Shown here in pieces: positions 377 to 11,423 of a stretch of 11,423 bases of DNA. The DNA is from Acidobacteriota bacterium. Lineage in GTDB: Bacteria; Acidobacteriota; Terriglobia; Terriglobales; Acidobacteriaceae. The stretch covers positions 1 through 11,423 of the forward strand of contig JAJXXG010000085.1 in NCBI GenBank assembly GCA_021781255.1, in the 5' to 3' direction. Every line of letters starts with the position of its first letter. Position 1 is the first letter of the stretch. Below the pieces are notes generated by a model. It saw nothing but the letters and a program-made list of their open reading frames with translations. It did not search any database and was not told where the DNA came from. The position numbers were made by a program, and so were the translations under genes.

Positions 377-793
377 ATGCGAACGCTTCACCCCATAGCC
401 ACCAGAACCCTAGAAGATCGTCTCTCGCGCTCTAAGAGCCGTCCCGCAAGATCGCATGTTGCTCAGGCGAGGGTCACGCGGCCTGAACAACTGGAATTGG
501 AAGCAGCAGCTCGCCACGAGGGTAAAGCCCTCAGCGAATGGGCGCGAGACGTTCTTTTGCGCGAAGCGCGTCGGCCTAGCGGCGATGCGGTCTTCACCGA
601 ACTCATCGCTACTCGGATGCTGCTTGTGAACCTGCTCAAGCCCCTCGCGCTTGGTGAAAAAGTTACTGCCGCTTGGATCACCGAAGCCATGACGATGGTG
701 CGGAAGGAGAAGCACAAAGCCGCGCAGGAGGTCATGCAGCAGTACACCCAGCAAGCCGGAAAGGAGACTTCCGATGGCAACCCAGTGGGGTAG
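377..793 (+). CDS. TrwA-like ribbon-helix-helix relaxosome accessory protein
   Basis: This 138-residue, mostly helical basic protein fits the accessory DNA-binding component that loads a relaxase at oriT and autoregulates the operon. Residues 1-27 form an Arg-rich tail. Residues about 28-66 look like a ribbon-helix-helix unit: a short strand (HVAQARVT), a helix (RPEQLELEAAARHEG), then ALSEWARDVLLREA. The C-terminal part (about 72-125) is hydrophobic helix followed by a Lys-rich helix, probably for oligomerisation. The start at 377 is fixed by GGAGG at 366-370, 6 bp upstream. The 3' end overlaps the coupling-protein gene by 20 bp. Gene order and size match R388 trwA (about 120 residues), but sequence identity is likely low, so no symbol is given. 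Confidence 0.75.
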   Translation: MRTLHPIATRTLEDRLSRSKSRPARSHVAQARVTRPEQLELEAAARHEGKALSEWARDVLLREARRPSGDAVFTELIATRMLLVNLLKPLALGEKVTAAWITEAMTMVRKEKHKAAQEVMQQYTQQAGKETSDGNPVG

Positions 794-2831
794 AAAAGAG
801 ACGATCATCTGGCCGCCGCACGTTCCGCTGATGAGTTATTGCGCCATCGCGGGGGCGTTTTTGCTGACGCTGTTCTTTGCCTGGGAGCGATATGCTTTCC
901 AACTCCCGCCGCTTCAGAAGGCGTACATGACGGACTATGCTCGGGCTGGTATTGGTAGAACCTTCCATGCCCACCAGAGCTACCGGCTCCTCTATCTCGG
1001 TGGCCCAAAAGCCAAGCCGCGTCTCGCCATGCCCATCGACTTCGCAGAGGGTGAGTTGACGCTGCCGAATGGCAAACGTATGCCGTTCTTCCTATCCGAA
1101 CTTGCTCGTGCCCAGGGCTATCGTTTCCCGTTTCGCGGCCCCGCACAGAAGCTGGCCGATGCCTCGATGTACCGCTGGCAGCATGATGTCGTTTACGGTG
1201 GTGCCAGCCCTTGGCGGCTATTCTCCGTCAGCATGATCGAGGGCGGACTATGCCTTGCACTCTTGCTTGCTTTGGCAGTTCCGAAAGACATTCGGCGCTT
1301 CAAAGAAATGAAGTATGGCCGCGTCCTTCGCGGCCCTCGAATGCTCGATCCGACCGAGTTCAACAAAGCTCAGAAGGGCGACGGCCTGGGCTTCAAGACG
1401 ACTGAATCCGGTCGCATGATGCGGATTCCGCTTCACAAGGAAGCGCAGCATCTTCAGCTCATGGGCGATACAGGAGTTGGCAAGACGCAGCTCATCATGC
1501 AGTGCCTTCGCCAGATCAGAGGCCGGGGTGATTCTGCCATCGTCTATGACCCGGCGTGTGAATATATTCAGCGATTCTACGACGCCAAGCGCGGGGACAT
1601 CGTGCTCAATCCGCTTGACGCCCGTTGCCCCTACTGGGGACCGGCGCAAGAGCTGGAATCGGAAGATGAAGCCTATGCGATTGCAACGTCTCTGTACGCA
1701 CCGAAGACCGATAAGGTCGATGAGTTCTTCCATGAAACGCCAGCACAAATATTCGCCCACCTATTGAAGCGCGGTCCGACCCCGCACCAGCTTGCCGCAT
1801 GGATGTCGAGCGATACAGAGCTGATGAAGATGGTGGATGGAACGGAGATGGCCTTCTACATAGACAGGAAGGCCGGCCCGCAGCGAGCGGGTGTTCTATC
1901 TTCGCTTGGATTGGTCGCCAAGTCGTTTCGTATGCTGCCAGAGCGTGATGAAAAACGTGCCGTCTGGAATGCGCGGACCTGGTCGAAGAAGCGTGAAGGA
2001 TGGATATTCATTACGTCCCGTCCACCGGAGCGGGACACGCTGCGTCCTCTGCATTCCCTCTGGATTGACCTGCTTGTGATGCGGCTGCTCACCGCTCCGC
2101 AGCCCGGCCAAAAGCCCGTATGGTTCGTCATCGATGAGCTGGCGAGTTTGCAGCGGTTGCCGCAGCTTCATACCGCCATTACGGAGAACAGGAAGTCCAA
2201 GAACCCGCTCATCCTTGGCTTTCAGGGCAAGGCCCAGCTTGAGGTCATCTATGGTCATCTCGCCGAGGTGATGCTGTCCCAGCCAGCCACCAAAATCTTC
2301 ATGAAGACCGCCGAGCCGAAGGCCGCCGAGTGGATATCCGAGGCCATCGGCAAAGTGGAGATCGAGCGGCTCAAGGAGACGAAATTCGACGGTACGCGCT
2401 CCGGTCACAATTTCACCGTCGAGCGTCAGATCGAACCGCTCGTCATGGGCTCCGAGATATCCGGCCTCGATGACAGGCACGCCTATCTCAAGCTGGGTAA
2501 CAGCGTGGCGCGGTTCGCTTTCGAATACATGGACCTGCCGACGCCAACTCCGGGCTTCCTGCCGCGCAAGACCGCTGGTGGACTACGCTTTGACCCGGAT
2601 ACGTTGGAGCGGAACCCGCCTGCGTCCACGCCCGAGCAAGAATCGCCAGAAAAGGAAGACATATCTCCGGCGACCGAGAGCGATGGCCCGCACGATAAGG
2701 AGCGTGCCCCGATTGCATGGCCTACGCCTGCCGCCCTGCAGCAGGCAGAAGTGTTATCACCTACTCTTTCAGAGGACGAAGAGCTGGAAGAAGAGCAGAC
2801 ATTAGGCCCCGCCCTGATACGGGAGACATAG
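774..2831 (+). CDS. TrwB/TraD/VirD4-like type IV coupling protein
   Basis: This 685-residue inner-membrane ATPase would connect the relaxosome to the type IV secretion channel and drive DNA transfer. Two hydrophobic segments (about 19-37 and 152-170) flank a periplasmic region. Walker A is GDTGVGKT at 231-238 and Walker B is WFVIDEL with Asp454-Glu455. Between and after them come the usual family blocks, such as YDPACEYIQRFYD after Walker A and LGFQGKAQLEVIYG after Walker B. It is longer than TrwB (about 507 residues) and closer to TraD in size. The extra length includes a C-terminal tail rich in Pro and Glu that ends in a very acidic run, a candidate for partner docking. The start at 774 has AAGGAG at 761-766. 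The stop lies 3 bp before the relaxase start, consistent with one transcript. Confidence 0.93.
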   Translation: MATQWGRKETIIWPPHVPLMSYCAIAGAFLLTLFFAWERYAFQLPPLQKAYMTDYARAGIGRTFHAHQSYRLLYLGGPKAKPRLAMPIDFAEGELTLPNGKRMPFFLSELARAQGYRFPFRGPAQKLADASMYRWQHDVVYGGASPWRLFSVSMIEGGLCLALLLALAVPKDIRRFKEMKYGRVLRGPRMLDPTEFNKAQKGDGLGFKTTESGRMMRIPLHKEAQHLQLMGDTGVGKTQLIMQCLRQIRGRGDSAIVYDPACEYIQRFYDAKRGDIVLNPLDARCPYWGPAQELESEDEAYAIATSLYAPKTDKVDEFFHETPAQIFAHLLKRGPTPHQLAAWMSSDTELMKMVDGTEMAFYIDRKAGPQRAGVLSSLGLVAKSFRMLPERDEKRAVWNARTWSKKREGWIFITSRPPERDTLRPLHSLWIDLLVMRLLTAPQPGQKPVWFVIDELASLQRLPQLHTAITENRKSKNPLILGFQGKAQLEVIYGHLAEVMLSQPATKIFMKTAEPKAAEWISEAIGKVEIERLKETKFDGTRSGHNFTVERQIEPLVMGSEISGLDDRHAYLKLGNSVARFAFEYMDLPTPTPGFLPRKTAGGLRFDPDTLERNPPASTPEQESPEKEDISPATESDGPHDKERAPIAWPTPAALQQAEVLSPTLSEDEELEEEQTLGPALIRET

Positions 2832-2834
2832 GCC

Positions 2835-5800
2835 ATGCTCGACATCTCCAAACCATTGAACGCGTCCCAGGCGCAGACGTATCACAAGCTCGATTACACC
2901 TCTCCGACGCAGAGCTACTATGCTCAAGGCGATCAGGTGAAGGGTGAATGGCAGGGCAAATTGGTCGAGTCGATGGGCGTCTCCGGAGAAGTATCCGCAC
3001 TGGAGTTCTCCCGTCTCACGGAAGGCCGACATCCTGTGACCGGCGAGCAGATGGTGCGCCATCGCATCGCTACTGAATACACCAACCCAGATCGCTCCAC
3101 GACGAAGGCCGTGGCTCACCGTGCCGGGTGGGATGCGATGTTTGCACCCGCGAAGTCTGTTTCGTTGACGGCGCTGGTGGGCGGCGATGATCGTATCCGC
3201 GAGGCCCATCGTGCGGCGGTCACAGTTGCGTTGGATGAGTTGGAGAAGTACACCCACGCGCGTCTTGGCGGAAATAAACCCGCCGAACAAACTGGCAGAT
3301 TCCTGGCCGCGAAATTCGAGCATGACACCGCCCGTCCGGTCGATGGCTACGCTGCTCCGCAACTCCACACACATGCCGTCATCTTCAACGTGACGCAACG
3401 CGCAGACGGGACGACGCGAGCCTTGCAGGAGCAACCGTTCTTTGAAAGCCAGAACTTCGTCACGGCGGTCTATCAGTCGGAGTTGATGTATCGGCTGCGC
3501 TCGCTGGGCTATGAGATCGAGCCAGGCGAAAGCGGCGCTCCCGAGATCAAGTCGTACTCCGCCGATTACCTGAAAGCCTCCAGCCAACGCCGCGAGAAGA
3601 TCAAGGAAGAGATGGAAAAGCGCGGCGTCTCCGGGCCCGAAGCGGCGGAGATCGCGGCGCGTTCCACTCGCGAGAAGAAGCATACGATGACGCCTGCCGA
3701 GGTCTTGGCGGCGCATCGGGAGCTTGCCGCCGAGTACGGCAACCAGCCGCAGCGCGTCGTGGTTGAAGCCCGCGAACGGGCGCAGACGATGGGCCATAAC
3801 CCCGACCGCGTCGCTCATGCGCGGGAGGCCGTGACCTACGCTCGCAGCAGCTTGTATGAGCGCGAGGCCGTACTGGATGAGCGTCTTTTACTCCGTGATG
3901 CATTGCGCCGTGGCATGGGAAATACCACCTATCCCCAGGTCCGCGCCGAATTCGAGGCACGGCATCAGCGTGGCGATTTCCTCTCGGTGGAATCCCACAA
4001 ACATGCCTCCAGTCCCCGCTTCACCACGCCGGAAACCATCGCCGCCGAACGCGCCAATATCGACTACGTTCGCGCCGCCAAGAACACCGTCCAGCCGATC
4101 ATGAGTGCCGAAGACGCACAGCGTCAGGCACAATCGCGCGACTTCCTGAATGACTCTCAAAAGCGCGTCATTGAAGAGGTGTTGAACTCGCCCGACCGTA
4201 TCCACGGGTTGCAGGGGCGGGCAGGATCAGGTAAGACCTCAGTGCTCTCTTCCATCCGCGAGGGCGCAGAAAAGAATGGATTCATCGTCGAGGGATTTGC
4301 GCCAACATCTCGCGCAGCGGCGCAACTCCGTGAGGCTGGTATCGACGCCTCCACATTGCAGAGCTTCCTTGCGCGGAAGACAGACCTGTCCCATGAGCAG
4401 CAGCCGCGCCACCTTTATATGCTCGATGAGTCGAGTCTTGCCAGCACCAAACAGATGCGCGACTTCCTGCAGAAATTGCAACCGCAGGACCGTGTGCTGG
4501 TCATCGGTGACACCGCGCAACATCAAGGTGTAGACGCCGGTCGCCCGTTCCAACAGATGCAGGAAGCCGGGATGCGGACCGCCCAGCTTGATCGCATCGT
4601 GAGACAGAAAGATCCTGCACTCCTGAAGGCCGTCGAGCACCTTGCAAAGAATGAAACCCAGCAAGGCATTACCTTGCTTCAGGAGCAGGGCCGCATCACC
4701 GAGCTGCCGGACCGGCGTGACCGCATCGCTGCTATCGCAAAGGATTATGCGGCCAGGCCGGAGAACACCCTCGTCGTCTCCCCAGACAACAAGAGTCGTC
4801 AGGAGATCAACGAGGCCATCCGCGCTGAGTTATTGCAGACCGGAAAGCTGAAAGATGATGGGAAAGTCTTTCGCACGCTGTCTCATCGTTCCGATATGAC
4901 AGGAGCGGATCGTACCTGGGCGGCACGGTACAACGTCGACGACGTGGTGCAGTACAACACTGGCAGCAAGGAGTTGGGCATCGAGCGCGGTAGCCTCACT
5001 ACGGTCAAGGCTGTCGATGCGAAGGCAAATCTACTGACGGTGGAGCGTGCCGATGGAGAAGTTATTGCCTACGATCCGCGACGCCTACGAGGTGTGAATG
5101 TCTTCTGCGAGCAGGAGCGCCAGTTCGCCACAGGCGACCGCATCCAGTTCACCGGGTCGCTGAAAGAGTTGAGCGTTGCCAACCGCGACCTTGCCACCAT
5201 CGAACGGATCGAAAACGGACGCATGACGGTACGGATGGACGGCAAGGAAAAGCGCACGCTCACTTTCGATACCGAAAAGGTCCGGCAGTACGACCATGGC
5301 TATGCCGTCACCTCGCATAGCTCGCAGGGCCTTACTTCAGAGCGTGTGCTGGCTCATTTCGATACCGAGGGGCCACGCGGGTTGGTGAACACGCGGCTTG
5401 CATATGTCGCCATTTCGCGAGCGTCGCACGACGCCCAAATCTATACCAACGATGCCGCGCGTTTAGGCAAGCGGCTCGCGACCGATATCTCGAAGACAGC
5501 AGCCATCGACCTCTCTGAATCCCCGAAGAAGAACGAGGTGGAGCGTGCCGTCTCCGCCTTCCGTGAGAGCGATCCCGCCACCGCTACGACCATCCTCCAG
5601 CAGGATGGTCGTGTCCACGAGTACGCCAGTGCGGAGCACCGCGTTGCCGCCGTTGCCCTCGCCTATGCTTCGCGCCAGGACCGCGCCATGGTCGTTGCGC
5701 CGGATGCGACAGAGCGCAAGGAACTGACATCGCTTATCCGCGATGAGCTTCGCCAGCAAGGACGCCTCTCTCCCGATAGTCATGCGCTGCCCGTCTGGGT

Positions 5801-6491
5801 CGAACAGCACTTCGGCAATCCACGCCTCGCCGCCAACTATGCTGTCGGCGACAAGATTCATTACAGAGCCGGAAGCCCAGAGCATGGCATCGTGGATAAC
5901 AGTACCGCGACAGTGTTGGCCGTCGATGCGAGAGCCAATCGCCTGACCATTGGGATGCGAGATGGCAATGAGGCCGGCTACAACCCGGCACTGCTGAAGA
6001 AGCTCACCATCCAAAGCCATGTCTTTCGCGAGGAGATGCGCGATATCTCTGAAGGGGAGCGCATCCGCTTGACGGCCAGCGCACGGGAGTTCCAGCTACA
6101 CAAGGGAGATTTCGCCACCGTCGAGCGTATCGGCGAAGATCGTTCATTAACCGTGCGCAGCGATCAGGGCAAGTCGGTTGCGCTCTCCGAAGAACAATCC
6201 CACAACATCGAGTATGGCTACGCTGCCGACCGGATGCCGCCGCGTGGCGTGGATCGCGTCATCGTGAGTGGCGAGACCCAGCAGCTTGCCACCATGCACA
6301 AGGACTTTGCAAGGCTCTCCGGGCAAACACGCGACCTCGCCATCTACACTTCGGATGGTCAAGGGCTGGCTCAGGAAAGGGCTATGAAGGGAGTCGAAGT
6401 CAGAACTCCGGGAAAACAGAGCGAGATGAACCTCAATGTCTCTATACCGGCACCGGAAATTGCGGTGGAAGGGTTCAGCCGTGGACGGTGA
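2835..6491 (+). CDS. MobF (TrwC/TraI-like) conjugative relaxase-helicase
   Basis: This 1218-residue protein would nick oriT, stay covalently bound to the 5' end and unwind the plasmid. Residues 1-about 300 form the TrwC relaxase domain. Candidate catalytic tyrosines are Y16, Y21, Y28 and Y29. The metal triad is H163 (HDTARPVDG) with H178 and H180 (LHTHAV). A coiled, charged linker (about 245-400) leads to a RecD-like superfamily 1 helicase: Walker A GRAGSGKT 461-468, Walker B LDES with D531-E532, motif III-like GDTAQHQGVD, GYAVTSHSSQG at 822-832 and AYVAISRASH. Residues about 900-1190 repeat the region 594-890 in degenerate form, with GYAADRMPPRG at 1128-1138 replacing the SHSSQG motif. The start ATG follows GGGAG at 2821-2825. 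A hairpin terminator lies 17 bp after the stop. Confidence 0.95.
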   Translation: MLDISKPLNASQAQTYHKLDYTSPTQSYYAQGDQVKGEWQGKLVESMGVSGEVSALEFSRLTEGRHPVTGEQMVRHRIATEYTNPDRSTTKAVAHRAGWDAMFAPAKSVSLTALVGGDDRIREAHRAAVTVALDELEKYTHARLGGNKPAEQTGRFLAAKFEHDTARPVDGYAAPQLHTHAVIFNVTQRADGTTRALQEQPFFESQNFVTAVYQSELMYRLRSLGYEIEPGESGAPEIKSYSADYLKASSQRREKIKEEMEKRGVSGPEAAEIAARSTREKKHTMTPAEVLAAHRELAAEYGNQPQRVVVEARERAQTMGHNPDRVAHAREAVTYARSSLYEREAVLDERLLLRDALRRGMGNTTYPQVRAEFEARHQRGDFLSVESHKHASSPRFTTPETIAAERANIDYVRAAKNTVQPIMSAEDAQRQAQSRDFLNDSQKRVIEEVLNSPDRIHGLQGRAGSGKTSVLSSIREGAEKNGFIVEGFAPTSRAAAQLREAGIDASTLQSFLARKTDLSHEQQPRHLYMLDESSLASTKQMRDFLQKLQPQDRVLVIGDTAQHQGVDAGRPFQQMQEAGMRTAQLDRIVRQKDPALLKAVEHLAKNETQQGITLLQEQGRITELPDRRDRIAAIAKDYAARPENTLVVSPDNKSRQEINEAIRAELLQTGKLKDDGKVFRTLSHRSDMTGADRTWAARYNVDDVVQYNTGSKELGIERGSLTTVKAVDAKANLLTVERADGEVIAYDPRRLRGVNVFCEQERQFATGDRIQFTGSLKELSVANRDLATIERIENGRMTVRMDGKEKRTLTFDTEKVRQYDHGYAVTSHSSQGLTSERVLAHFDTEGPRGLVNTRLAYVAISRASHDAQIYTNDAARLGKRLATDISKTAAIDLSESPKKNEVERAVSAFRESDPATATTILQQDGRVHEYASAEHRVAAVALAYASRQDRAMVVAPDATERKELTSLIRDELRQQGRLSPDSHALPVWVEQHFGNPRLAANYAVGDKIHYRAGSPEHGIVDNSTATVLAVDARANRLTIGMRDGNEAGYNPALLKKLTIQSHVFREEMRDISEGERIRLTASAREFQLHKGDFATVERIGEDRSLTVRSDQGKSVALSEEQSHNIEYGYAADRMPPRGVDRVIVSGETQQLATMHKDFARLSGQTRDLAIYTSDGQGLAQERAMKGVEVRTPGKQSEMNLNVSIPAPEIAVEGFSRGR
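4614..6370 (+). repeat. Internal tandem duplication within the relaxase helicase region
   Basis: Translated copy A spans about residues 594-890 and copy B about 900-1180. Matching landmarks appear in the same order: LLQEQGRITEL with ILQQDGRVHEY; TLVVSPDNKSRQEI with AMVVAPDATERKEL; KAVDAKANLLTVERADG with LAVDARANRLTIGMRDG; ANRDLATIERI with HKGDFATVERI; HGYAVTSHSSQG with YGYAADRMPPRG; DAQIYTND with DLAIYTSD. The offset is close to 306 residues throughout. Copy B has no Walker A or B and has lost the SHSSQG helicase motif, so it is probably structural or DNA-binding. Confidence 0.85.
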
Positions 6492-6507
6492 ACATTATGA
6501 GCACAAT

Positions 6508-6535
6508 AAAACGGGAGCCTCTCGGCCCCCGTTTT
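6508..6535. terminator. Bidirectional intrinsic terminator after the relaxase
   Basis: AAAACGGG (6508-6515) pairs with CCCGTTTT (6528-6535). An A/C mismatch and a further GCC/GGC pairing surround a TCTC loop. The outer A-T pairs give a T-tract on both strands. The hairpin begins 17 bp after the relaxase stop. It separates the transfer operon from the cargo genes. Confidence 0.85.
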
Positions 6536-6586
6536 CGTTCCGTTGCCCCGGCCATGTGCCTTTCGGCAGGGATGGTTCCGGCAGCG

Positions 6587-6625
6587 TTCTTAATAAGAAT
6601 ACCCCCTGTTGACGGAGCCGTCAAC
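6587..6625. promoter_or_regulatory. Two palindromes upstream of the Abi-like gene; candidate operator
   Basis: TTCTTAATAAGAA (6587-6599) has 6-bp arms around one A. GTTGACGGAGCCGTCAAC (6608-6625) has perfect 8-bp arms around AG and contains TTGACG, a possible -35 element. No good -10 follows at 17 bp (only GATGCT-like sequence near 6633), so the promoter is uncertain. The second palindrome ends 22 bp before the ATG of the Abi-like gene. It could be a repressor site or part of a structured leader RNA. Confidence 0.45.
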
Positions 6626-6647
6626 AAGACCGGATGCTGAATAAAAG

Positions 6648-7367
6648 ATGTCCTCAAAATCATACAGCGTCGAATTCCTGGCCGACTTGGATCGCACACT
6701 GACCCGTGCCCGAATCTTCCGCTACCTCGCTGCAGCCAATGGCGATCTCACGCGAGCGCTTGCGCTCTATGAAACCAATATCGCCGTCTCGGAAGCTCTT
6801 TTCGGCGTGCTTCACAACGTAGAAATTGCTATCCGAAATAGCCTGCATGATGCACTGAGCAATGGCACTGGGATGCAGGACTGGTACCGAAACAATCTTG
6901 CGCTGCCGTTTCCCACTGTGCCCAGGCTGATCTTCACCAGACCGATGCAGAAGATGATCGAAAAGGCGCGGCGTAACGTGGGCACTCCTGCTCCCGTCGG
7001 CAAGCTCATCGCGGAATTGACCTTTGGCTTCTGGCCATTTCTCATATCCGGTCAATATCACGATCTCTGGTCGGTCTGTTCGCATCACGCGTTTCCTCAT
7101 GCGCGCGTGCCGCGTTCCCGTGTGCATACTCGCTTGGAAACGATTCAGCGGCTCCGCAACAGAATCGCCCATCACGAACCCATCCTGACTAACCAGAACA
7201 TGCTCTCTACCGGTCATGTCGCGCAGCCGAAGATCACTTTGCCGGAGATACTGGAGTGCATCCGGTGGATTTCACCTGCAACCGCAGACTGGGTACGGGA
7301 TACGACTCGCTACGACCGCGCACAGGCACTGTTGGCAGAGCTGGCATCGAGTGGAGTCGTGCTCTAA
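6648..7367 (+). CDS. Abi-like (Abi_2/AbiF-type) HEPN family protein, probable abortive-infection RNase
   Basis: This 239-residue protein resembles the Abi family (AbiD/AbiF, Pfam Abi_2). Members are thought to cut RNA through a HEPN fold and arrest phage-infected cells. Visible features are an N-terminal helical part, NVEIAIRNSLHDAL at 57-70 (the E..R-N block of the family), GKLIAELTFGFWPFL at 118-132, and RLRNRIAHHEPI at 168-179. That last block contains the HEPN-type R-x4-H signature (R170, H175). The ATG at 6648 is the first start after an in-frame TAA at 6642 and has no good Shine-Dalgarno, so expression may be weak or depend on the leader. No protein antitoxin gene lies beside it. It stands alone between the transfer-operon terminator and a convergent gene. 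The family call is by motif recognition and RNase activity is inferred. Confidence 0.75.
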   Translation: MSSKSYSVEFLADLDRTLTRARIFRYLAAANGDLTRALALYETNIAVSEALFGVLHNVEIAIRNSLHDALSNGTGMQDWYRNNLALPFPTVPRLIFTRPMQKMIEKARRNVGTPAPVGKLIAELTFGFWPFLISGQYHDLWSVCSHHAFPHARVPRSRVHTRLETIQRLRNRIAHHEPILTNQNMLSTGHVAQPKITLPEILECIRWISPATADWVRDTTRYDRAQALLAELASSGVVL

Positions 7368-7410
7368 CTTGCAGCCGTTGACTCCCGAAGAGCGAGAATC
7401 AGAAATTCTG

Positions 7411-7456
7411 TTAGTCTCATTAGTCGCACCACTGGCGCGACTAATTAAACGCGTTT
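7411..7456. repeat. Nested inverted repeats between convergent genes
   Basis: ATTAGTCGC (7419-7427) pairs perfectly with GCGACTAAT (7437-7445) around a 9-bp loop. A further TTAGTC lies at 7411-7416, directly repeated with the left arm. The 10-bp palindrome AAACGCGTTT follows at 7447-7456. Neither strand shows a T-tract after the stem, so this is not a classical intrinsic terminator. It could still attenuate transcription from both sides or be a recombination or protein-binding site. Confidence 0.5.
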
Positions 7457-7506
7457 AGCTGCCGGGAAAGGGCACGACAGATAGCGGAGTCGAATCCTGG
7501 GAGATG

Positions 7507-8577
7507 TTATTTTTCCGGTGTCTCCGGTGACTTGCTCCATCGACCCAAAGCTTCTTTAGCCGCTCCTCTCGCTTCCTGTTCTTCGTACATCACGACCCGC
7601 CACTCGTCGCCATGCCGGATGAAGACAAGTCCACACTGCCCCATCCGTTCGCAGATAAGGTCATAGATCGGAGCGAAGACTTCGATGGAAGGCCAGGCAT
7701 ATTCCTGTAGCCAGAGTTCGTGCAGGACCCGTTCCAGCCGGTCCATCAGCGATCCCAGCTCCGGGTTCTTTCGCAGTATCTCGTCCAGCCGCGGTGTGCA
7801 ATCCTTCCGCCTCCGCTCGACCCCATGAACGTGACCGAGCAGGTAGCCGGCATGGATGAAGGTATCGCCGAAGATCTGCTGAATCTCGCGGAAAACATCG
7901 CCCACCGACCGGCCTTCGCGATGTGCCTGAATCTGCTCGATCGCCGCAACCGGACTCTCTTCGAGAGCGCGGCAGAGGATGCCTTCAAACTCTTCGATCG
8001 CTTCCGGGCGAAACATCGCGGAGGAGCGGCAGGCGGCGTATTCACTCCATACGTCCATCGCCTTAAGATAGGTTTGCCGGGAACGATCCCCACACTCCAG
8101 CGGTTTGCCATAGCTGTCAGGGAACATGCGGTAGAGATGGCTCTCGTGATCGACGTGCGCGGCTTCGTGAGCAATACACCCCCGCACCAGACGTTGCATG
8201 GTCGGATCGGGTGACATCGCCAACAACAGAAGTCCGGGCCGCACCACGATGTGAAACCGCAAATCTCCGTTGCGGCGCACTGCGGCTGTTCGGGCCATCT
8301 CCATCGCGTCAGGTTGTTCGCTCATCTCTAGAGGAATTTGGCCTGCAGGGAGGTTCTGAAGCGCACATGCCGCTGCATGGCAGTCCGGGGCAACAGTAAT
8401 CCCATCCAGTGCTTTCAGGTCGATTCCTGCGAAGGCTGCTACATAAAGGTTTTCTTCCAAAACCTGCATGACAGCTTCCTGAACCTCCGGCCCGGCGAGA
8501 CACGCTACATCCACCGTGCAGCGATCGGGCAAAGGAAGCCGTCCGGTTCCGTCCGCGCTGAAGATCAGCTCACGCAT
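7507..8577 (-). CDS. Uncharacterised HExxH protein, putative zinc metallopeptidase
   Basis: This 356-residue soluble protein has no signal peptide or membrane segment. The central motif CIAHEAAHVDHE contains HEAAH (H137, E138, H141), the zinc site and catalytic Glu of many metallopeptidases. E179 in MDVWSEYAAC, 38 residues on, is a possible third ligand of the gluzincin kind. The N-terminal part (1-about 125) and C-terminal part (about 200-356, helical and ending in a charged tail) are not recognised. The start at 8577 is supported by GGGAGA 7 bp upstream on the minus strand. It lies on the same strand as the Argonaute pair but 489 bp downstream, beyond a candidate terminator, so it is probably transcribed separately. 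The motif is seen; the protease function is inferred and no substrate can be named. Confidence 0.65.
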   Translation of the reverse strand: MRELIFSADGTGRLPLPDRCTVDVACLAGPEVQEAVMQVLEENLYVAAFAGIDLKALDGITVAPDCHAAACALQNLPAGQIPLEMSEQPDAMEMARTAAVRRNGDLRFHIVVRPGLLLLAMSPDPTMQRLVRGCIAHEAAHVDHESHLYRMFPDSYGKPLECGDRSRQTYLKAMDVWSEYAACRSSAMFRPEAIEEFEGILCRALEESPVAAIEQIQAHREGRSVGDVFREIQQIFGDTFIHAGYLLGHVHGVERRRKDCTPRLDEILRKNPELGSLMDRLERVLHELWLQEYAWPSIEVFAPIYDLICERMGQCGLVFIRHGDEWRVVMYEEQEARGAAKEALGRWSKSPETPEK

Positions 8578-8728
8578 AACTCAATCTCCCATAGGGGAAA
8601 ATGGCCCATACCGAGACAGGATCAAGATGTTGGACATACTACAGAGCTGTCGTTATGAGCGCCATGCAGAAGCGGCGGTAAGGACAGGGGCAGCATACTC
8701 CTCCAGTTCGAGGTTTTTTGGGAGAAAC

Positions 8729-8751
8729 ATTTGCGGTACGCCCCCGCAAAT
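8729..8751. repeat. Perfect 8-bp inverted repeat (hairpin)
   Basis: ATTTGCGG (8729-8736) pairs with CCGCAAAT (8744-8751) around a 7-nt loop TACGCCC. Read on the minus strand it is followed by GTTTCTCCC, a weak T-tract. It could be a second, weak terminator for the Argonaute operon or a hairpin in the leader of the HExxH gene. Confidence 0.4.
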
Positions 8752-8838
8752 AGCCCTGATAACCCTCGTCGGGGAGTTCGAAAACCGGCAGAAACACGCG
8801 GTTCCATAAACCTTTAGCCGCGAAGCCTGGACATACGT

Positions 8839-9024
8839 CTATGGCTCCCCGACGCTAAGGCGTTGGGAATTCGGCCCGTGACTGTTGCCAGCGCACGGTG
8901 TTTCTGCTTGGGTTTCGACACCCAGGACGGTGCGTACCCGTCCTCCTCCATCATCCACCAGGGCGTCGTAGTTGGGCAAACCGAAAAGCGCCTGGAGATC
9001 CCAGGCGCCCTGTGTGGGATTCAC
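8839..9024 (-). pseudogene. Possible N-terminal remnant of an ISL3-like transposase
   Basis: A 61-residue minus-strand frame includes LQALFGLPNYDALVDDGGG and then VLGVETQAETPCAG. The order LFGLP, a strand-rich VDDGGGRVRTVLGVET segment and a Cys is reminiscent of the N-terminal end of ISL3-family transposases, which continue into a CxxC zinc finger. Here the second Cys is missing and the frame stops soon after, with no recognisable remainder. The match is by impression only. A candidate terminator hairpin overlaps the fragment, so the frame may be chance. Confidence 0.22.
8984..9008 (-). terminator. Candidate intrinsic terminator of the Argonaute operon
   Basis: On the minus strand GCGCCTGG pairs with CCAGGCGC around a 5-nt loop (arms at 9001-9008 and 8988-8995 in plus coordinates). 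TTTT follows directly (8987-8984). The stem is GC-rich and perfect, and it begins about 58 bp after the Argonaute stop on the same strand. The T-run is short, so termination may be incomplete. Confidence 0.55.
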
Positions 9025-9066
9025 ATGGCACTGCGCAAAGCAGCCTTGCGGCGAATCCCCTGGCCG

Positions 9067-10479
9067 TTACATGTAAAAGCTGTATCTCGGCTCAATCCGC
9101 TGATTATCCGAACAGTGTTTCAGCACATTCCCCACACTGTGTGCTGCCGTCAACGTAAGAGGCATCCCACCGTCGAATTGGGTACTGTTCCAGTTCATCT
9201 TGGTAAGTGCAAGAACTTCGCGGGCGTGGCCAAGCGGCGTCTGGTCGCCCGCCGCAATCTTCAACGCCAGTGGTTTGGGAACGTACATTCCGGGGTAGGT
9301 CTCGAAGAACGGAACACTACCCTTCGTATAAAGCACTCCATTACGTCCACTCGTTTGCAGGAATGTCCCCCGCAGAGGTGGGTATACTCCGTCCCGATAC
9401 AGCCGAATGTCCGAATCGTTCGCGTGGAGCAAGTCGAAAATTTCGATACGGGCCTCCCGTATCGCACGCTTCGCGCCTTCTTCTTCTTCTTTCGAGAAGC
9501 CGGAACTTTTGTGAATGACCAACCGTGCAGGAAGAGTGCGATGCACTTCTCGGTAACGATTCAGCGCGTCCGTAATGAGTCGATAGCAATCTTCCCCGGA
9601 AAGATGGGGCTGGCGGTCATCCTTCGAGAGCGATGCAGCTCCACCGCGGACAACCACTCCTTCCCCCAGCTCGTTGAATACCTGCGCCATGCTCGTCGTG
9701 AGCCGGGAACGATCCAGGCTTTCATAAAAACTGATTCCAACGAAACAAGCAGAAAGTTGGGAGGAATCCCGAATGAGCCGCCAAGGTGTACCTCCAGCCT
9801 TGTAGTACAAGGCCGAGAAAATGTTCCATGCTCGTGTCGCCTCATCCTGTAATGGACGCGGCGTTCCTGCGCGCTTTTGCTTCTTCGCCTTGGACTCATC
9901 GTATGTTCCGGGCAGAATAAGTTGGATGGGGATTCGCCACTGCATGGTGCGTGCCTTGAGCAAGTGGTGAAGGTCTTTGCGTCCAGGACTCTTGCGCTCT
10001 TCCGCTAGAAGCTCAAGCAGTTCAAGCGGCAGTGCGCACATAATCACATTCGGATTGCTGTTCTCAGCAAGAAACTCTACCTCTCGGACAAAAAGATCCG
10101 CAGCCTTTTCGACACGCTCTGCAATCGTGGCTGCCTCAGACAGCCCCTCAATCGTCGTTCCGGTGAGGGTTCGATTGAGAGACGAATCAGTAGCGAAGTT
10201 GCAGCAGAACGAAGTGCTAGGTGTAACAGCCGGGAAAGCTGGAAACAGGTTAGGTTTTTTGGTCTCCTTTTGTGCGATCCCCTGGACGCATCGTTCGATC
10301 CAGCGTGTGACGCCTTCCACCGTTTCCCCCGTCCCAATCAGGCCAATCCGAACTTCCTTCGGCGCACGCGGCGACTGGAGATCAAAGGGGCCATAGTCCC
10401 TGATCCCGAAGCGGATATCAATGTGCCGTCCGCCGCCGCCAAACTCTAGTTCTGGTTCTTCCAAAATTGTGAGGTTCAT
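9067..10479 (-). CDS. Short prokaryotic Argonaute (MID-PIWI), catalytically degenerate
   Basis: This 470-residue protein has the length and layout of short pAgos, which lack N and PAZ domains, bind a guide, recognise complementary nucleic acid and activate a partner effector. Residues 1-40 carry the short-pAgo opening (PELEFGGG, IRDYGPFDL). The MID domain (about 41-215) includes RIGLIGTGETVEGV and HHLLKARTMQ with IPIQLILPGTY; K175 and Q186 are candidates for guide 5'-phosphate contact. The PIWI domain (about 240-470) shows SACFVGISFYES, RLVIHKSSGFSKEE, RLYRDGVYPPLRGTFL and a C-terminal LTKMNWNSTQFDGGMPLTLT. Active PIWIs have Asp where FVGIS has S250, so the slicer tetrad is broken, as expected for short pAgos. 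The ATG overlaps the stop of the upstream APAZ gene as ATGA, implying translational coupling and a 1:1 complex. The only poor fit is a close Shine-Dalgarno (GGAG, 2 bp). Confidence 0.88.
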   Translation of the reverse strand: MNLTILEEPELEFGGGGRHIDIRFGIRDYGPFDLQSPRAPKEVRIGLIGTGETVEGVTRWIERCVQGIAQKETKKPNLFPAFPAVTPSTSFCCNFATDSSLNRTLTGTTIEGLSEAATIAERVEKAADLFVREVEFLAENSNPNVIMCALPLELLELLAEERKSPGRKDLHHLLKARTMQWRIPIQLILPGTYDESKAKKQKRAGTPRPLQDEATRAWNIFSALYYKAGGTPWRLIRDSSQLSACFVGISFYESLDRSRLTTSMAQVFNELGEGVVVRGGAASLSKDDRQPHLSGEDCYRLITDALNRYREVHRTLPARLVIHKSSGFSKEEEEGAKRAIREARIEIFDLLHANDSDIRLYRDGVYPPLRGTFLQTSGRNGVLYTKGSVPFFETYPGMYVPKPLALKIAAGDQTPLGHAREVLALTKMNWNSTQFDGGMPLTLTAAHSVGNVLKHCSDNQRIEPRYSFYM

Positions 10480-11423
10480 AGCTCCAGTTCCGCCTGTTCA
10501 TCCTGGTCGCCTGCAAAGACCGTCTCTTGGCGATCCTTTTCCTCACGCTTGACCCAGTCCGTATCATCGAATCCGCTGTCTGCGGTGCACTGCATCAAGG
10601 GATAGAACTTGATGAGGTTATGTTGGCTGAAGAGCGTTTCCTTTTGAAGGAACTCTCCCCACATCACAACTTGACCATGGACGGCCTGATTGTTCTCCAT
10701 ACGCTTGATTCCGCTCAGTGCTTCTGCGCTGAAACGGCTATCGCGATAACCATCCTTGGTGAACCGATACGTCGGCGTGATCTGGAGAAACCAGTTGCCG
10801 TCCATTTCGACAAAGTGTCCGTAAAAAGCGGAGTGACGGAAGTAGGCAGTGTGTTCAGGATTCGCCTTCGTGCAATAGCGCTTAAATACCTCACGGCTGG
10901 CATCCTTGCGGCGACTTCGGTACTTCCTCGACTTATCCTCCAAGTCATCACTGGCACGATGGAAATAGTATTCGTGCATATTTGAAAAATGGATATCGTC
11001 TTCGCGCAACTGATCCTGAAGCGTCGCGTTGAGAAGTTCGACGAAAAGCCGCCTCCGGTCTGCATCCGCTTCCATCGACCACTCGAACGATAGGTCGTTT
11101 TCGACCGTTCCGGGTTCGGCAATATCTTTCCACTGCGATGCGGAAAGGTCATAGAAGGAATAGACCGTGCTGCCGTGGATGGTGAAGCCTCGCCAAACGT
11201 CTCTCTTTGTGGTCTTTGCCAACGTAAAAAGATGATCGAGGGCCTGTTTGCGGTTCTTAAAGGTCGTGTGGGCGTGATAGTAGCGCTCGGGAAAACTCGC
11301 AACCGGAAGGAGATCGGTAAAGATCGTCTCCTCTTTCGGCGTTGTGCCAAGGTACAGGCCGCCGTCATTGGGCAGTGCCAGACGCTTCAACGCCTCCTTT
11401 GCGGAGGCGTCGAAAGCATTTTG
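10476..11423 (-). CDS. APAZ-domain partner of the short Argonaute (5' end off window)
   Basis: The last 315 residues of a protein are visible, and the frame stays open to the right edge. The TTG at 11388-11390 is therefore probably internal (Leu), not the start. The visible part reads as an APAZ (analogue of PAZ) domain. An N-terminal block has FTDLLPVASFPERYYHAH, then VWRGFTIHGSTVYSFYDLS and RLFVELLNATL. A second block has HEYYFHRA, TAYFRHSAFYGHFVEM, WFLQITPTYRFTKDGY and LSGIKRMENNQAVHGQVVMW. The C-terminus is acidic. In known systems APAZ binds the short pAgo and is fused to an N-terminal effector (SIR2, TIR, DUF4365/DREN nuclease, HNH and others). Here the effector lies beyond the edge and its type cannot be told. 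The gene is upstream of, and 4 bp overlapping with, the Argonaute gene. Confidence 0.8.
   Translation of the reverse strand, partial: QNAFDASAKEALKRLALPNDGGLYLGTTPKEETIFTDLLPVASFPERYYHAHTTFKNRKQALDHLFTLAKTTKRDVWRGFTIHGSTVYSFYDLSASQWKDIAEPGTVENDLSFEWSMEADADRRRLFVELLNATLQDQLREDDIHFSNMHEYYFHRASDDLEDKSRKYRSRRKDASREVFKRYCTKANPEHTAYFRHSAFYGHFVEMDGNWFLQITPTYRFTKDGYRDSRFSAEALSGIKRMENNQAVHGQVVMWGEFLQKETLFSQHNLIKFYPLMQCTADSGFDDTDWVKREEKDRQETVFAGDQDEQAELEL

Follow-up and report, generated by a model that had tools for sequence, protein, structure and literature searches.

The window analysed here is a stretch of 11,423 nucleotides from an Acidobacteriota bacterium (contig JAJXXG010000085.1), and the two overlapping minus-strand genes at its end (9067-11423) almost certainly represent a SPARDA defence pair, composed of a short prokaryotic Argonaute (pAgo) and an APAZ protein with a DREN (DUF4365) domain. 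A first, sequence-only reading had described them as a short pAgo-APAZ defence pair acting as guide-directed sensor with a separate effector, which is supported as to kind. It had also left the subtype undetermined and regarded a new effector class as possible. This was not borne out, because the Argonaute is closest to those of SPARDA systems and DUF4365 is present in P0001, the nearest partner homologue found, as well as in most of the listed partner homologues; as far as the relatives and the visible part of the partner gene go, no new class is indicated. Apart from modest sequence differences the pair is an ordinary example of DREN-type SPARDA.

The 470-residue MID-PIWI protein predicted in the first reading is encoded by an open reading frame (ORF) at 9067-10479. 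Its full length is covered by short pAgo models and by the solved SPARDA Argonautes, which indicates an architecture of MID and PIWI only. The profile search of the minus-strand proteins suggested in that reading gave E 6.6e-170 for the PADLOC model pAgo_I over residues 1-470 and E 1.5e-80 for the model Aga_REase-PNTD1-PNTD2 against the partner; both matches are far beyond chance. The best PDB sequence matches of the Argonaute are SPARDA Argonautes (9qbl, 9qbp, 9jsb; E 3e-103 to 5e-91), after which rank SPARHA (9om4, E 8.6e-73), SPARTA (1.1e-38 at best) and SPARSA (7.2e-17). With the predicted fold as query, Foldseek placed SPARDA chains on ranks 1-22 and SPARHA on rank 23. Among solved Argonautes the nearest reaches only about 37% identity, and two other protein clusters are 95-96% identical over 100% of the length. 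In total 3952 homologues were found, and the comparisons use the 120 listed; named sources among the nearest SPARDA proteins listed are Acidisarcina, Terracidiphilus and Occallatibacter. Pfam gave no match to the window Argonaute even at E 1, nor to most of its close relatives, and NCBIfam at E 0.01 matched neither of the two genes nor P0001.

The partner gene is represented by its 3' part. No stop interrupts its frame up to the window end, beyond which lie about 140 codons of the 5' part; the effector domain is located outside the window, since the visible 315 residues match only residues 141-455 of P0001. The Aga_REase-PNTD1-PNTD2 model, which describes an APAZ protein with a nuclease, matches from profile position 129 of 429 onwards, whereas SIR2 models reach 1.4e-26 or weaker. 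Together with the 94% identity to P0001 across all visible residues, this match confirmed the APAZ-like gene of the first reading. In P0001 DUF4365 comprises residues 21-155 (7.2e-26), with no other Pfam domain over cut-off, and the first residues of the window partner (P0001 141-155) already overlap the end of this profile match. The same domain (PF14280) was identified in 109 of the 120 listed partner homologues (of 174 found), the other 11 being without any Pfam domain, and it is present in each of the four best, whose identity across the visible part is 78-94%. P0001 matches the DREN-APAZ protein 9jsb_D over residues 10-412 (E 3.5e-52). From these relatives we infer a DREN (DUF4365) domain for the window partner, itself beyond the window. 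The acidic C-terminal tail of the partner (10479-10562, minus strand; P0001 428-455) was predicted with low confidence and is similar in the closest relatives read.

Features of the window. Coordinates are those of the whole stretch.
Feature	Coordinates	Strand	Basis and remarks
NikA-like relaxosome accessory protein	377..793	+	PF21983 1.6e-4, 22.2 bits, below the cut-off of 27; 51% identity to pACPOL1 gene
TrwB/TraD-type coupling protein	774..2831	+	PF10412 4.5e-76; 55% identity to pACPOL1 gene
TrwC/MobF relaxase-helicase	2835..6491	+	PF08751 1.6e-80; NF041492 MobF 213.8 bits, cut-off 100; 59% identity to pACPOL1 mobF
Abi_2/AbiD-like protein	6648..7367	+	PF07751 32.1 bits, cut-off 25.6; PADLOC AbiD 3.7e-9
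Short prokaryotic Argonaute (MID-PIWI)	9067..10479	-	470 residues, ATG start; presumed guide-RNA binding sensor of target DNA in the SPARDA system
S250 codon, presumed first catalytic Asp position of PIWI	9730..9732	-	sequence read; 51-sequence alignment
ATGA overlap of effector stop and pAgo start	10476..10479	-	sequence read
DREN-APAZ effector gene, 3' part only	10476..11423	-	315 residues = P0001 141-455; PADLOC 1.5e-80; 94% identity to P0001
APAZ domain of partner	10575..11333	-	window residues 31-283 = P0001 171-423

The catalytic residues of the missing domain can be followed in the characterised system NbaSPARDA from Novosphingopyxis baekryungensis (PDB 9jsb, 9jsp, 9jsz, 9jt2), which likewise consists of a short pAgo (E 4.6e-91 to the window Argonaute) and a DREN-APAZ protein. 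According to PMC12205087, its catalytic DREN residues are D41, Q60 and K62; replacement of D41 or Q60 by alanine removed the activity, and that of K62 weakened it. They align with D48, Q68 and K70 of P0001, which are all outside the window and keep the residue in each case. Across an alignment of 53 partner homologues picked from the 120 listed, neither D48 nor Q68 varies, and K70 is conserved to at least 90%. In SPARHA (HNH-APAZ, Acidithiobacillus caldus, 9om4) the effector is an HNH domain, and P0001 matches 9om4_A only from residue 171, i.e. in the APAZ part. SPARTA (TIR-APAZ, e.g. 8fex, 8qlo) uses a TIR NADase as effector and its Argonaute is more distant in sequence.

The broken PIWI active site of the sequence-only reading proved to be no peculiarity of this locus. 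Ser250 is present as claimed, in the motif CFVGISFY. We presume this residue to be the first catalytic Asp position, on the basis of the GI-[D] motif. To map it onto an active long Argonaute, Argonautes were sought via PF02171 in 21 and 299 genomes, of which 1 and 3 gave a match; the two long Argonautes found in this way (ORFs of 775 and 762 residues) have by eye GIG and GMG at the motif, look inactive and so do not settle it. In an alignment of 51 Argonautes, the window sequence and 50 picked from those listed, Ser250 is invariant; R362 of the RDG motif is invariant too, whereas D363 falls short of 90% conservation. According to PMC12205087, the PIWI domain of short pAgos is catalytically inactive as a class. 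Because of this and of the invariant serine, Ser at the presumed catalytic position would be the ordinary state of the family.

A mechanism was described for NbaSPARDA (PMC12205087; a further source is PMC10810196). By analogy, the short Argonaute, itself inactive, would form a heterodimer with the DREN-APAZ protein and bind a small guide RNA in its MID pocket. Once this guide pairs with the DNA of an invading plasmid or phage, complexes would assemble, by which the DREN domains would be brought together to an active, indiscriminate nuclease that kills or arrests the cell. The present analysis shows to which family both proteins belong, their predicted fold, the overlap of the genes and the domains of the nearest full-length partner found; RNA guide, DNA target, nuclease activation by oligomerisation and abortive outcome would be transferred from characterised relatives. 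The ATGA overlap, by which the first reading had the two genes coupled, was confirmed by sequence read at 10479-10476 and may indeed couple their translation.

The Argonaute residues named in PMC12205087 were mapped through the Argonaute-PDB alignment and counted in the same 51 Argonautes. The NbaSPARDA contacts to the guide 5'-phosphate, K187 and K240, are kept as K175 and K227 in the window (both 51/51), and the guide contacts R221, Q224 and N232 as R208, Q211 and N219. Two of the latter, N232 and Q224, are the contacts to U2 and are kept in 51/51 each. The guide-pocket residue R183, which also contacts the 5'-phosphate, is in contrast H171 (His in 49, Arg in 2 of 51), which means that His-Lys replaces Arg-Lys. 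Changes are also found in the base pocket, where N181, F182 and W201 correspond to D169, L170 and L189, with W159 aligned to a gap. While S447 is retained (S432), N451 and R459 are changed to D436 and T444. A preference for U at the second guide position may persist, because its contacts are kept, and the preference at the first position may differ.

According to the same source a group change of six PIWI-PIWI residues abolished filaments as well as defence in NbaSPARDA. Only one of the six, E360, is identical in the window (E346), and K324 is replaced conservatively (R310); E253, F256, R285 and R287 correspond to S239, L242, L271 and E273. Position 273, the counterpart of the basic filament residue R287, is acidic in 51/51 sequences (E 46, D 5), and the partners of R287, E253 and F256, are altered as well; at position 271 Arg (35) and Leu (16) are found. 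The MID-PIWI residues Q134, R295, R142 and D480 are changed to E135, A281, N142 and R465. These changes suggest other contacts rather than an absence of assembly. We would propose only tentatively, and with more doubt than confidence, that there is a SPARDA branch centred on Acidobacteriota in which the guide pocket is His-Lys and the interface between the Argonautes is rewired. If it exists, its preference for the 5' end of the guide could be another one, and its assembly could use a surface unlike that of the known filament. XauSPARDA from Xanthobacter autotrophicus and the system of Enhydrobacter aerosaccus (9qcc, 9qbq, 9qbl, 9qbp), whose hosts belong to another phylum, show about 37% sequence identity; the title of 9qcc names a filament for Xanthobacter. 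The well-populated SPARDA branch to which the pair belongs, here next to conjugation genes and without most of the named contacts, would be a fair test of how assembly surfaces vary.

That the pair travels on a conjugative element, as the first reading inferred, is likely, though short of proof. Relaxosome genes adjoin the pair, and they were the only conjugation genes identified: Pfam and NCBIfam recognised no mating-pair genes in the window. They are colinear with their counterparts on plasmid pACPOL1 of Acidisarcina polymorpha, in which genes of a VirB-type type IV secretion system precede them, although PLSDB types this plasmid as non-mobilizable. Because the SPARDA pair lies 2.6 kb beyond these genes, it is probably cargo of a MobF conjugative plasmid or an integrative element of an Acidobacteriota (Terriglobia) host.

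Relatives on plasmids are not rare: 39 plasmid records contain matches to P0001. Seven of these matches cover only 15% of the query; 23 cover at least 80%, of which 22 are annotated as DUF4365 and one is unannotated. By mobility typing 20 of the 39 plasmids are conjugative, 12 mobilizable and 7 non-mobilizable; the 99 plasmid records matched by the Argonaute comprise 50 conjugative, 45 non-mobilizable and 4 mobilizable ones, all of which are raw counts with no background rate. The same DUF4365-APAZ/pAgo pair is found on the conjugative-typed plasmid pBs5S5b of Bradyrhizobium septentrionale (pAgo 47% identical), but such plasmid-borne pairs differ in their relaxases (MOBP, MOBQ) and other neighbour genes. 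Among viral contigs neither the patterns of the partner nor the relaxase gave a match, and five distant Argonaute loci were found (25-39% identity); phage records contained no match to the window Argonaute.

It is possible, though we regard it as rather unlikely, that the pair serves the element itself and mainly excludes competing plasmids rather than phages. Its position beside relaxosome genes and the share of conjugative and mobilizable plasmids among those matching P0001 are in line with such a role, as is the activity of NbaSPARDA, which interferes with plasmids and also acts against phage T5 (PMC12205087). However, the contigs that carry two near Argonautes (95% and 83% identical) measure 4.1 and 6.8 Mb and are presumably chromosomal. 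In any case a role in plasmid exclusion is compatible with the assignment to SPARDA and not exclusive of it.

Of 24 related loci with an Argonaute match that were examined, 19 have a partner ORF whose end is close to where this match starts. With profiles built from the alignment of 53 partner homologues, APAZ was recognised in 18 of the 19 and DREN in 12; a start/stop overlap of four nucleotides is possible in 12. The search for these ORFs proceeded from the base at which the tblastn alignment starts. For five loci (L015, L016, L018, L029, L030) the match covers only part of the Argonaute, and L028 begins at a contig edge, so that a missed partner means little there. Seven partner ORFs are without DREN match (L001, L003, L005, L017, L026, L027, L029). 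In L003 the contig begins inside the partner gene, and the ORF of L029 has 113 residues and no APAZ. In L001, an Armatimonadetes metagenome-assembled genome, the DREN-APAZ gene (5305-8004) is split in its APAZ part by a transposase-like ORF, with the DREN piece upstream; by eye the interrupting ORF looks like an IS256-type transposase. From these counts the pair appears to be a recurrent unit, the effector of which varies among distant relatives. The 461-residue metagenomic protein P0206 joins a DUF4365 start to a later Argonaute part, so that the beginning of MID and the bulk of APAZ are absent, and is either a deletion or an assembly chimera.

The interruption in L001 could suggest that the window pair, too, has decayed to a remnant without function on a mobile element, as could plasmid NZ_CP087720.1, where an IS5 transposase annotation lies under the Argonaute and partner matches, each in two pieces. 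We consider this very improbable, as both visible frames of the window are open and co-extensive with their closest relatives (pAgo 95-96% over 100%; partner 94% over 315 residues). Slightly less probable still is another effector fused to the APAZ partner, be it new or of the HNH (as in SPARHA), SMEK, TIR or SIR2 kind: the window does not include the effector domain, the partners of L005, L017, L026 and L027 match APAZ but not DREN and some plasmid relatives are annotated as SMEK, yet the visible start of the partner already overlaps the DUF4365 match, this domain prevails among the listed homologues and is present in the four best, and the Argonaute is nearest in sequence to those of SPARDA. 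The APAZ partner of L017 (6622-8004) starts by eye like a DUF4062 domain, and that of L005 (6514-8004) resembles a SMEK-APAZ protein.

Neither promoter nor terminator is claimed for the SPARDA operon, because the site counts in 6400-11423 are near expectation (promoter-like 1 versus 2.1 expected; terminator-like 7 versus 5.3). Rfam at gathering scores gave no match in the window. The Abi_2/AbiD-like gene between relaxase and SPARDA pair, which has by eye an RNxxxH-like stretch (RNRIAHH), is possibly a second abortive-infection gene. The gene at 7507-8577, which follows next on the minus strand, was rejected as third gene of the operon, as it lies 489 bp downstream and has no match in the 25 related loci compared. 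The Abi_2 gene has no match in any of these loci either; in this set L021-L024 repeat stretches of L001, L002, L004 and L008, and L019 and L025 are without Argonaute match there. The 7507-8577 gene encodes 356 residues with an HEAAH motif (zincin-like by eye), for which no curated family match was found (Pfam M48 11.7 bits, cut-off 20.3). Relatives of this protein are present on 22 plasmid records, many of them rhizobial, with 26-28% identity for the ten listed.
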